Shown in pieces: positions 35,557-39,146 of a DNA stretch of 44,104 bases. Under the pieces are notes generated by a model. The model had not been told where the DNA came from, ran no database searches, and saw nothing but the letters and a program-made list of their open reading frames with translations. Origin of the DNA: a virus. Position 1 is the stretch's first letter; each line of letters begins with the position of its first letter. The DNA lies in IMG/VR virus record IMGVR_UViG_3300042294_004018, positions 1 to 44,104 of that record; one strand, 5' to 3'. The position numbers were made by a program, and so were the translations under genes.

Positions 35557-36404
35557 CAGGAGTAAACCCCGCCAATGATTATCTCATTGGGATTAATTGG
35601 ATATGCAGCGCCAGTTGCTGGGTAAACGGCGCCCCAATCTACAATCATTACAACGCGGTCGGCTGTAGCTGCACCGCCAAGTTTCTGGTAGATGGCCACA
35701 TATCTAGGCGAAACCGTGCAACCTGTGAGGATGATCTGCTCAGCCCGCACGATGATCTCATCAAGAGCATCATTGCGCGTGATCGTCAGCGGGGCAGCCA
35801 CGCCACCAGCGGTATAGCCAGTGCCGGTCACCTCTGCGCTTAGATCCGACCGGAACGAATGCGATGGGCTGGGGGTGTAGCCAGTACCCAGCAGCATTGC
35901 CCAGAAATTGCCGGCGCTGAGGTTTAATGTCTCGTTGATTATTGCATTGATCGTTGCATGAGGCACCGTGATAGAACTGTTCTCGGCTGCAGTTTCGATT
36001 ATCATTTGCTCAAGCCTGAACAATCCGCCTACACTGTTCTGAGGGCTGCCAATATCATTGCACCCAAAGACAATTTGCAGGGAAGGGGTTGTTGATGGTC
36101 GATAATATATCAGGACTTTCTGGGCACCCGTGATGGTGGCGCTCCATGAAAACGGGGCAATGGTTAGGGTGTTAATCCCGGTTGTAGTGTTCATCGTGTT
36201 GCTCAGCGTTATCGCCTTACCGCCTGCCTGATACCCAGTTACAGGGCTAATCTCGCCGCTTGTAATTGCGGCCATCGTGTCATGCGTATCAGGATTAAAT
36301 GTAAAACTAGGCAGCATCAGTTGAGCATAGAAAACGCCAGTCAGTGGCATTTCAGCAGTCGCCAGGGCATTCAAGGCCCGGTTGCTGAGGGTGAAGACAG
36401 GCAT
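35556..36404 (-). CDS. Unknown tail-associated protein with internal duplication
   Basis: 282 residues, Thr/Gly/Asn-rich and beta-rich. Residues about 27-118 and 170-270 look like two copies of one domain: ITSGEISPVTGYQAGG against LSAEVTGTGYTAGG, followed in each by a Thr-rich strand and a hydrophobic strand with Tyr. Such duplicated beta domains are common in phage tail baseplate or fibre proteins. The minus-strand pair 36404-35215 is convergent with the fibre gene, only four bases apart. Confidence 0.75.
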   Translation of the reverse strand: MPVFTLSNRALNALATAEMPLTGVFYAQLMLPSFTFNPDTHDTMAAITSGEISPVTGYQAGGKAITLSNTMNTTTGINTLTIAPFSWSATITGAQKVLIYYRPSTTPSLQIVFGCNDIGSPQNSVGGLFRLEQMIIETAAENSSITVPHATINAIINETLNLSAGNFWAMLLGTGYTPSPSHSFRSDLSAEVTGTGYTAGGVAAPLTITRNDALDEIIVRAEQIILTGCTVSPRYVAIYQKLGGAATADRVVMIVDWGAVYPATGAAYPINPNEIIIGGVYS

Positions 36405-36444
36405 CGGGGCGGGGCTAGATTGTTGCCGCTATGCTACCGAGCCC

Positions 36445-37026
36445 ATGACAGCTGCTCCCCCTAACCCGCTGGCCGGCGTGCCCTATTACCGCCAGCGGGA
36501 TTCGGCGCAGCTGGGACAACGGGACCGCACCTGTTTCTCGTCCAGTTGCGCGATGCTGCTGGAGGCCCTGAGGCCCGGCACCCTCCATGGGCCCAATGGG
36601 GATGATCAGTATCTGGCGACGGTGCAGCGGTTTGGCGACACCACCCAGGTCGTTGCCCAGATCCAGGCCCTGGGCCACTACGGCATCACCGCGCGGTTTG
36701 AGCAGGTTGCCGATTTTTTGACGATCGAGCAGCAGATTGCTCGCGGCATCCCGGTTCCCTGCGGATACCTGCATCGAGGGCCCGTCCATCGCCCGACCGG
36801 CGGGGGGCATTGGATGATCGTCTACGGCCACACTCGCAACAGCGTGATCGTCAACGACCCGTGGGGAGACCCTGATCTGATCACCGGCGAAACGCTCAGC
36901 CCCAACGGCCAGGGTTTGCACTTCAGCCGGGAGCGCTTCGGCCGCCGCTGGATGGTGCGCTCGATCGGGAATGGGGCCTACCGGTTTGAGCCGGGCCGGG
37001 GGTGGGCGATCGTTGCGGATCGCTAG
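36445..37026 (+). CDS. C39-like papain-fold endolysin
   Basis: 193 residues from the Met at 36445. GVPYYRQRDS, then RTCFSSSCAML with C30 as likely nucleophile (spacing C-x6-M as in C39-type QCGPxxLAM), H122 in GGGHWMIVYGH and D138 in VIVNDPWG form a papain-like catalytic triad. Cyanophages often use such peptidases to cut peptidoglycan peptides. No signal peptide is visible, so a holin is needed. The stop shares the palindrome CTAG with the minus-strand gene on its right. Confidence 0.85.
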   Translation: MTAAPPNPLAGVPYYRQRDSAQLGQRDRTCFSSSCAMLLEALRPGTLHGPNGDDQYLATVQRFGDTTQVVAQIQALGHYGITARFEQVADFLTIEQQIARGIPVPCGYLHRGPVHRPTGGGHWMIVYGHTRNSVIVNDPWGDPDLITGETLSPNGQGLHFSRERFGRRWMVRSIGNGAYRFEPGRGWAIVADR

Positions 37027-37295
37027 CCCTCCTCCCGCCAGCCCCCCTCGTCCTGCACCATGCCGTCCCAGCCAGCTTGCCCCGCGTCGGCATCCTCAGT
37101 CAGCCCCTCGATCGGTTCCAGCTGGGCCCACTGCGCCGATGGGTTGTGCGGTTGCTGGGCGCGGCGCTGTTCGATCAGCTTGCGCAGAGGGGTTTGCGAT
37201 CGGTCCTGGTGCAGGGCCCCATCAATCGTGACCTCCCAACAGCCGCCACCCTCTGCGTCTGTTCCTACTCTTAACTGCAGCTCCTGATCTGCCAT
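37023..37295 (-). CDS. Small unknown protein, framed by overlapping start and stop
   Basis: 90 residues: MADQELQLRVGTDAEGGGCW, EVTIDGALHQDRSQTPLRKL, then a charged tail. Its stop shares CTAG with the lysin stop and its ATG shares CATG with the ATG of the 37294 gene on the other strand. Function unknown. Confidence 0.65.
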   Translation of the reverse strand: MADQELQLRVGTDAEGGGCWEVTIDGALHQDRSQTPLRKLIEQRRAQQPHNPSAQWAQLEPIEGLTEDADAGQAGWDGMVQDEGGWREEG

Positions 37296-37515
37296 GGCCT
37301 CGACCTCGAATAATTGGATGGTGCCGAACCTCACGCTAGAGGCTGAATCAGACCTGGAACGGGGCCGCATGATGCTGCAACAGATGACCCCAGAGCAGGT
37401 GTTGGCCCAGGCTCACGTGCTGCTCAAGCAGTCGGTAACGAATGGCGTGATCATCCGCCAGGCCGCCCAGCGCATCTGCGAACTGGAGGCCCGTGCTGCG
37501 GTTCGGGAGGGGTGA
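37294..37515 (+). CDS. NblA-like phycobilisome-degradation protein (tentative)
   Basis: 73 residues. Residues 13-46 show L-T-L-E (13-16), L21, M31-T-P-E-Q (31-35), L43 and Q46. This spacing equals the NblA pattern L-S-L-E-x4-L-x9-M-S-x-E-Q-x7-L-x2-Q. NblA proteins are about 60-residue adaptors that hand phycobilisomes to the Clp protease, and freshwater cyanophages carry nblA genes. Departures are the missing aromatic residue after LxLE and a longer C-terminal helix (RQAAQRICELEARA). It is divergent from the 37023 gene and convergent with the methyltransferase. Confidence 0.45.
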   Translation: MASTSNNWMVPNLTLEAESDLERGRMMLQQMTPEQVLAQAHVLLKQSVTNGVIIRQAAQRICELEARAAVREG

Positions 37516-38493
37516 TCACGCCACCGGCCCCGCTGAGGCGAATAGGTCGGGTTGGTGGCCGGCGGCTTGGGCTCTGCTGATTCGCTGCTGGGCGATGGCG
37601 TGGTAGTCCGGGTTGATCTCACTGCCCTCAAAGTCACGTCCCAGGAGCAGCGCTTGCTCACCCACGGTGCCGCTTCCTGTGAATGGGTCATAGACCACGC
37701 CTCCTTTTGGGCAACCAGCCAGGATGCACGGCTCAACCAGCTCCGGGGGCATGACAGCGAAATGGGCGCCATTGAATGGTTTGGTGGCAATGGTCCACAC
37801 ATCGCGGCGATTGCGGTCAGGTCCTCGCCCAACAGATGCCATGTCCCTGCCATCTCGCTTTGCTGGCCCCCCTGCGGATTCCCGAAAGTGCCCAGCACCA
37901 CGGAAGCAATTTGAGCCACTTGATTTGCCCATAGAGCTTGCTGGCTCTTTTATCGCATCCGCGTCGTAGTAATACCTTGCCGATTTTGACAACAGGAAAA
38001 CATATTCATGCGCCTTTGTGCAGCGGTCCGTAACGCTCTCAGGCATCGAGTTTGGCTTGTGCCAGATGATGTCCTGCCGCAGATACCAGCCGTCAGCTTG
38101 CAAGGCAAAGGCGACGCGCCACGGAATGCCGACTAGGTCTTTGTTTTTAAGGGTTGCCGCAGTCAGCCCTTGCCGGTGCTTGGGATGGTCACGCCCCGCA
38201 GTCCCGTCGCTGATGGAAGTTGACGCCCCACGGTTGGCGTTATAGGCGTTGTACGAATCCCCAAGATTCAGCCACAGCGTCCCGTCATTCCGCAGCACCC
38301 GGCGGACCTCGCGGAACACTTCCACCATGCGGGCCACGTATTCTTCCGGCGTGGCCTCCATGCCGATCTGCCCATCGTGGCCATAGTCCCGCAGTCCCCA
38401 GTAAGGCGGGCTGGTGACACAGCAATGGACCGACGCATCTGCCATGGTGCGCAACACCTCCAGGCAGTCGCCAAGGTGCAAGGTGCTGGTCAT
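37516..38493 (-). CDS. Orphan DNA methyltransferase, beta class (N4-cytosine or N6-adenine)
   Basis: 325 residues from the Met at 38493, which overlaps the tmk stop as ATGA. HLGDCLEVLRTM, then motif IV TSPPYWGLRDYG (27-38) come before the FTGSG SAM-binding motif (271-275), the beta-class order. TSPPY fits N4-cytosine or N6-adenine methylation. No restriction enzyme gene lies nearby, so it is an orphan that probably protects phage DNA from host restriction. Confidence 0.88.
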   Translation of the reverse strand: MTSTLHLGDCLEVLRTMADASVHCCVTSPPYWGLRDYGHDGQIGMEATPEEYVARMVEVFREVRRVLRNDGTLWLNLGDSYNAYNANRGASTSISDGTAGRDHPKHRQGLTAATLKNKDLVGIPWRVAFALQADGWYLRQDIIWHKPNSMPESVTDRCTKAHEYVFLLSKSARYYYDADAIKEPASSMGKSSGSNCFRGAGHFRESAGGPAKRDGRDMASVGRGPDRNRRDVWTIATKPFNGAHFAVMPPELVEPCILAGCPKGGVVYDPFTGSGTVGEQALLLGRDFEGSEINPDYHAIAQQRISRAQAAGHQPDLFASAGPVA

Positions 38494-39146
38494 GCCCTTC
38501 CCCCAAACTGGCGGACCATGGCGCGGCAACAGGCCTCCGTCACGGCAGCTACGGGCTTGCCTGCATCAATGCGGGCCCAGTCTCGTTGGTCGGCCAGGCG
38601 TTCAAATCCATGAGCTACGCGGGCCAGGAACGCCACCCCCTCCTCCTCAAGGCGATCGGCCAGTTGCTCGCGTCGCCGCCAGCATGAATCAATCAGGGAC
38701 ACATCCAGCCAGAGGGTGAGATCAGCCTGCAGGGTGCCTGTGGTCAGGGTTTCCAGCGTGTCAAGCAGGGCCACAGGCCAGCCCCTGCCATAGCCCTGAT
38801 AGGCGGCGGTCGATCCGGTGAACCGATCACACAGCACCCAATCCCCGGCATCGAGCGCCGGCCGCAAAACCGTTTCGACATGCTGGGCACGATCGGCGGC
38901 ATAGAGCAGCAGCTCAGCACGCGGCACGGGAGCAGCTTTGCCAGGAGGGTGCAGCAGCAGCTCCCTCAGTGCCTGGCCCAATGCCGTGCCGCCAGGCTCA
39001 CGGCTCACAACCACGCGGGCGCCAGGGGGCAGCAGGCCGCTGCTGGGCAGCCATTGGCGCAAGGCCTCCAGTTGGGTGGTCTTGCCGCAGCCGTCGATGC
39101 CCTCCAGGACGATGAACCGGCCACGGGCTGGGGTGGTGTCACTCAT
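38490..39146 (-). CDS. tmk: Thymidylate kinase
   Basis: 218 residues. P-loop GIDGCGKTT (16-24), SREPGGT, the DRF motif in CDRFTGSTAAYQGYGRG and the arginine-rich lid (WRRREQLADRLEEEG) define dTMP kinase (dTMP to dTDP). It overlaps the dcd stop and the methyltransferase start by ATGA. Together with dcd it raises dTTP supply. Possibly host-derived. Confidence 0.92.
   Translation of the reverse strand: MSDTTPARGRFIVLEGIDGCGKTTQLEALRQWLPSSGLLPPGARVVVSREPGGTALGQALRELLLHPPGKAAPVPRAELLLYAADRAQHVETVLRPALDAGDWVLCDRFTGSTAAYQGYGRGWPVALLDTLETLTTGTLQADLTLWLDVSLIDSCWRRREQLADRLEEEGVAFLARVAHGFERLADQRDWARIDAGKPVAAVTEACCRAMVRQFGGRA

Follow-up and report, generated by a model that had tools for sequence, protein, structure and literature searches.

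A small cyanosiphovirus gene that is probably related to nblA

The virus record IMGVR_UViG_3300042294_004018, a virus of freshwater picocyanobacteria whose 44,104 nucleotides were analyzed as a whole and are referred to below as the window, contains a short gene that, judging from profile comparisons and a predicted fold, probably encodes a divergent phage form of NblA, the protein that cyanobacteria use to tag their light-harvesting antennae for degradation. We infer that the gene product functions as a phycobilisome-degrading ClpC adaptor and put the probability of this reading at roughly 0.6. That the protein family to which it belongs is homologous to NblA is very likely, because a profile of the phage proteins reaches NblA by way of host proteins and because an NblA-like hairpin is predicted.

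The gene (positions 37294–37515, + strand) runs from an ATG at 37294 to a TGA ending at 37515 and encodes a protein of 73 residues. It is a genuine, conserved gene. Eight other viral contigs (IMG/VR loci) encode the same protein at 91–96% identity, and the nonsynonymous rate (dN) was lower than the synonymous rate (dS) in seven of seven pairwise comparisons, with a ratio of about 0.26–0.53 that is based on few differences (locus L008 was left out, its protein being equal to that of L007). Larger minus-strand open reading frames (ORFs) overlap both ends of the gene (37023–37370 and 37413–37919), as might be expected if it were a spurious frame lying antisense to a minus-strand gene. In all nine copies, however, each reverse frame is interrupted by stops while the forward frame has none, and distant homologues exist, some of which are annotated genes. 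A family profile from which the window's own subfamily had been removed matched the ORF with an E-value of 1.9e-17 among 1013 window frames, which refutes the spurious-frame reading and leaves it with practically no credence.

Sequence comparison places the ORF in a previously unrecognized and unannotated protein family of Synechococcus siphoviruses. Relatives were found at about 30–44% identity. Confirmation succeeded for 40 of the 74 pattern matches, close relatives included (at least 40 viral contigs). The isolates that carry the gene, KBS-S-2A (CPKG_00010), S-CBS1 (gp26), and S-LBS1 (A32), have Synechococcus as host, and in each of them it is annotated as 'hypothetical protein'. S-LBS1 is described as infecting phycoerythrin-rich Synechococcus (PMC6157547). 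The family was defined by an alignment (A4) in which, as in a further one (A7), near-identical loci are represented by one or a few sequences picked by eye. When run on ten named phage records, its profile matched KBS-S-2A, S-CBS1, and S-LBS1, all three being members of the profile, as well as a marine single-cell virus (E = 1.5e-7), and gave no match in S-CBS3, S-CBS2, S-SCSM1, S-SRP01, or P-SSP7; a weak match in another record is discussed below. The window protein fits the family by its profile match, its W-M-V start, its I-x-E-L-E end, and its place after the endolysin gene. All 21 aligned phage sequences share W8, I61, and E65, residues that have no counterpart in NblA.

Host proteins connect the phage family to NblA

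The identity of the protein as an NblA could not be decided from its single sequence, and the evidence that carries the assignment comes from profiles. When 292 cyanobacterial genomes were searched with the phage profile, 14 of them yielded a total of 19 matches at E ≤ 0.1, with a best E-value of 9.4e-7 for one genome. Fourteen of the 19 belong to one host family of proteins, mostly about 60–90 residues long, as judged by reading the translated loci. (An earlier scan of contigs with the phage alignment had confirmed none of 25 pattern matches; it was the later whole-genome profile search that found the relatives.) Profile–profile alignment with hhalign gave 95.6–96.6% between the phage and host families and 93.5% (range 92–94%) between the host family and canonical NblA. 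The phage–host figure is inflated by the selection of the host sequences through their match to the phage profile, a bias from which the host–NblA figure is free. Compared directly, the phage family and NblA gave 45–53%, which is borderline, yet above all 200 shuffled controls. The real scores were 48.6 and 25.6, compared with shuffle maxima of 18.5 and 16.6 (200 shuffles each), and reversed controls were lower too. Pfam listed NblA for three of ten host proteins scanned (E = 9.3e-5, 0.053, and 0.49), none of them over the cut-off; these ten are from the 13 rows of the host alignment (A5), L180 having been omitted although it is NblA-like in look.

The distribution of the host family fits a role in connection with phycobilisomes. 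The host profile was found in 99 of 150 genomes of one order, presumably the picocyanobacterial one, and Pfam's NblA model exceeded its cut-off in none of the 150. The family was present in all 89 genomes with at least five phycobilisome linker domains, in 8 of 17 genomes with one such domain, and in 2 of 44 with none (Fisher p about 2e-30, a test confounded by the shared ancestry of the genomes). There thus appears to be a picocyanobacterial NblA-like family that is closely tied to the possession of phycobilisomes and escapes Pfam's NblA model. It is the closest profile relative of the phage family and its likely source, or else the two share an ancestor. The host gene encodes about 60 residues and differs from the phage gene in having neither the W-M-V start nor the I-x-E-L-E end. 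Some host genomes (G401, G405, and G406; loci L240 and L243) hold two NblA-like genes at a short distance from each other on opposite strands. Reading the ORFs of four regions by eye did not support the idea that the host genes lie in phycobilisome operons.

Predicted fold and residue pattern

The window protein is predicted to be a two-helix hairpin of the NblA type, as an earlier note on this DNA had supposed. AlphaFold2, run as a single chain with 22 viral sequences, placed helices at residues 15–29 and 33–72 (pLDDT 86), and with 14 canonical NblA sequences it placed them at residues 9–22 and 27–55. The starts of NblA's helices are thus reproduced at an offset of 6, and the second helix of the phage protein is about 11 residues longer. 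Foldseek searches of the PDB and of viral models gave no useful match for the phage model; a control model of NblA missed NblA too, so that we do not count this result against the assignment. A lone VIA-align row proved to be an HMG domain (Z 2.0).

The earlier note had also named NblA-like positions within residues 13–46, and these hold: L13, L15-E16, L21, M31-x-x-E34-Q35, L43, and Q46 align without a gap, at the same constant offset, to L7, L9-E10, L15, M25-x-x-E28-Q29, L37, and Q40 of canonical NblA. This offset was also the best ungapped placement on a table of NblA positions, for which the protein ranked first of 584 window frames of 40–150 residues. At the NblA motif L-x-x-E-Q-x-F, which we take to be the ClpC-binding motif, L13 is present in 20 of the 21 phage sequences, E16 in 16, and L or F at the position of the phenylalanine in 17. 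The phage family resembles NblA (PF04485) in size, in its predicted helix-turn-helix with coinciding starts, in its N-terminal L-x-L-E, and in the spacing of E-Q and Q; it differs by the absence of a Pfam match, by its W-M-V start, by altered C-terminal positions, and by a longer second helix that ends in I-x-E-L-E.

Proposed function and alternative explanations

NblA is described as binding ClpC through a conserved motif near its N terminus and phycobiliproteins through one near its C terminus (PMC4103541), and as a ClpC adaptor (PMC7966870). By analogy, the phage protein, which is carried by siphoviruses of phycobilisome-bearing Synechococcus, would fold into two helices, presumably dimerize, and be a relative of the products of the picocyanobacterial NblA-like genes. 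Its conserved N-terminal half (L-x-L-E-x-x-L/F) would dock on the ClpC of the host, and its long second helix may hold a phycobiliprotein or a linker. During infection, the antenna would then be taken apart, which would release amino acids, reduce excess excitation, or both. The dimer, the docking, the cargo, and the physiological effect are all inferred from this resemblance. Of the earlier proposal of an NblA-like protein for phycobilisome breakdown, descent from NblA is therefore upheld by the profile chain and the fold; the C-terminal half is altered, and breakdown is a plausible function.

Several observations weigh against this assignment. Of 5000 shuffles of the window protein, 58 scored as well as the protein itself on the table of NblA positions, so that the residue match found by eye, though real, is weak when taken alone. 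The window protein had no match in Pfam (NblA was not listed at E-values up to 10), PHROG, or NCBIfam. The window's subfamily has a serine at NblA's invariant phenylalanine, and its two sequences alone stayed near background in hhalign comparisons with the host family (0.8%) and with NblA (4.3%). At the position aligned to L51 of NblA, 20 of the 21 phage sequences have alanine, and at that aligned to K53 they mostly have G or R; we take L51 and K53 to be C-terminal phycobiliprotein-binding residues of NblA, L51 being important. Finally, the family profile weakly matched Prochlorococcus phage PSS2 (E = 4.9e-4), whose host group possesses no more than a reduced antenna.

The profile search that the earlier note had called for gave a divided answer. 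The Pfam NblA model itself matched nothing in the window, in any of the nine related virus records, or among the 12 phage relatives scanned, while the family profile connects to NblA through the host proteins. Searches of PDB, Pfam, PHROGs, and NCBIfam with the window protein or its KBS-S-2A relative yielded no family, or rows that we took as chance, and tblastn searches of phages with two solved NblA fragments gave one weak row, which led to the podovirus protein, for one and none for the other. The joint absence of an NblA profile match and of a hairpin, which the note had named as fatal to its proposal, was not found as a whole.

A rival reading is that the product is a small helical protein of the phage with no relation to NblA, such as a lysis-associated or regulatory protein encoded beside endolysin and sigma-factor genes, and that the likeness reflects convergence of short amphipathic helices. 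The direct phage–NblA comparison is indeed borderline, and in two profile searches of 177,635 PDB sequences NblA (3cs5) came second and in register with E-values of 0.68 and 0.76, which are not significant and stood beside chance rows; the conserved position adjoining the endolysin gene would suit such a protein as well. However, the genome matches of the phage profile fall mainly in one host family that itself matches NblA, shuffled and reversed controls scored far lower, and the helix starts coincide with those of NblA, so that we find an unrelated protein improbable.

The altered cargo-binding positions raise a different issue, namely that the protein may be a relative of NblA that still binds ClpC and delivers another host protein, or that blocks the host NblA-like protein by pairing with it, in which case the antenna would be retained. 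The changes opposite L51 and K53 of NblA, the invariant W8, I61, and E65, and the longer second helix speak for this. Yet the picocyanobacterial NblA-like proteins likewise have no canonical C terminus and their family nonetheless tracks phycobilisomes, and the C terminus of the published podovirus NblA is also divergent. A retargeted or blocking role is therefore unlikely in our view, if less so than an unrelated protein. In a more specific and slightly more doubtful form, cyanosiphoviruses might have derived from NblA an adaptor in which the docking half is preserved and the cargo half has been extended into a longer helix that bears an invariant I-x-E-L/I-E motif, either steering ClpCP to a new substrate or capping the host NblA-like protein and so protecting the antenna. 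Because the start motif is kept, while the residues opposite L51 and K53 differ from those of NblA and are followed by new invariant ones, homology is the firmer part of our interpretation, a degrading adaptor is the most likely function, and a retargeted or blocking one is possible.

Genomic context

The window encodes portal, head-protease, tape-measure, and tail genes, and its tail protein and endolysin are similar to those of Synechococcus phages. The endolysin gene, the upstream neighbor (36382–37026, + strand), encodes a C39-peptidase-like domain (PHROG endolysin, E = 3.7e-59; Pfam Peptidase_C39_2, E = 9.2e-8), and its product matched exclusively Synechococcus phages and cyanophages (105 records). 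Between it and the NblA-like gene lies a small divergent gene encoding 90 residues (37023–37295, − strand), which is open in all nine copies with a shared start. The start codons of the two divergent genes overlap within the sequence CCATGG, a feature of the window's subfamily. The small gene is the positional counterpart of a small minus-strand gene in KBS-S-2A, S-CBS1, and S-LBS1, and the small gene found at this place in other cyanosiphoviruses differs from it; the longer ORF (37023–37370) had no Pfam or PHROG match. The downstream, convergent neighbor (37516–38529, − strand) encodes a DNA methyltransferase (Pfam N6_N4_Mtase, E = 4.7e-49; PHROG DNA methyltransferase, E = 3.9e-82), which occupies the place of the sigma-factor gene of most relatives. 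This difference hints at module exchange at the junction. Gene order was compared by tblastn in 22 loci (KBS-S-2A being counted in each figure): the endolysin gene was upstream in 18, the KBS-type small minus-strand gene directly preceded the NblA-like gene in 16, and a minus-strand sigma-factor gene directly followed it in 17.

Relation to other phage nblA genes

Phages of bloom-forming cyanobacteria are already known to carry nblA, as are podoviruses and T4-like phages, in which the gene is divergent. According to PMC9602691, Nadel et al. predicted nblA in 14 podovirus isolates and one myovirus isolate, and that paper itself predicts it in S-SCSM1 and seven more myoviruses; the legend of its tree also includes a siphovirus symbol. 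Synechococcus WH8102 is said to have a divergent nblA-like gene (PMC7439483), which may belong to our host family. In the available parts of the literature searched for nblA or phycobilisomes with these siphoviruses, no assignment of nblA was found, although Nadel et al. 2019 might hold siphovirus entries; the accessible text of the S-LBS1 and KBS2A papers contained no mention of 'nblA', and for the S-CBS1 group the table seen gives no photosynthesis gene (PMC5332604). A possible parallel is a cyanosiphovirus-like prophage of S. elongatus PCC 7942 with the pigmentation genes Synpcc7942_0759/0760, which causes loss of phycocyanin and chlorophyll (PMC9239245).

We compared sets of podovirus (n = 8) and myovirus (n = 6) sequences, for which 12 of the hits listed in these two groups were fetched. 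The podovirus set joined canonical NblA (hhalign 94.3%) but did not link to the siphovirus family (9.5%), and the myovirus set joined the picocyanobacterial family (95.9%) and not NblA directly (0.2%). The siphovirus family joined the picocyanobacterial family (96.6%) and NblA moderately (53.2%). By this measure, the link of the siphovirus family to NblA is no weaker than that of the published myovirus nblA. Marine T4-like cyanophages (S-SCSM1, S-TIM5, and others; PMC9602691) also carry an nblA that connects to the picocyanobacterial host family, but it forms a separate lineage, with 8.0% between the two phage profiles and no match of A4 to S-SCSM1. The podovirus gene located beside the exonuclease (S-SRP01, S-CBP, and P-SSP7) also encodes a short phage NblA with an E-Q-x-F motif, and differs from the siphovirus gene in gene order. 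We presume that this gene is the nblA which Nadel et al. 2019 predicted in podoviruses. It is found in the same place in P-SSP7 (L251), a phage of Prochlorococcus. Prochlorococcus does not have normal phycobilisomes. The gp049 of PSS2, a Prochlorococcus siphovirus (L266:1760–1987; 75 residues), resembles the picocyanobacterial NblA-like type, and its record notes only similarity to WH7803_0965.

Because the family is distantly related to NblA, these viruses probably tamper with the breakdown of the host antenna. This offers a testable role for the 'hypothetical protein' genes of KBS-S-2A, S-CBS1, and S-LBS1. If the assignment is true, the small Synechococcus siphoviruses would carry a third, separate lineage of phage nblA, and manipulation of the antenna would be common to all three tail types.
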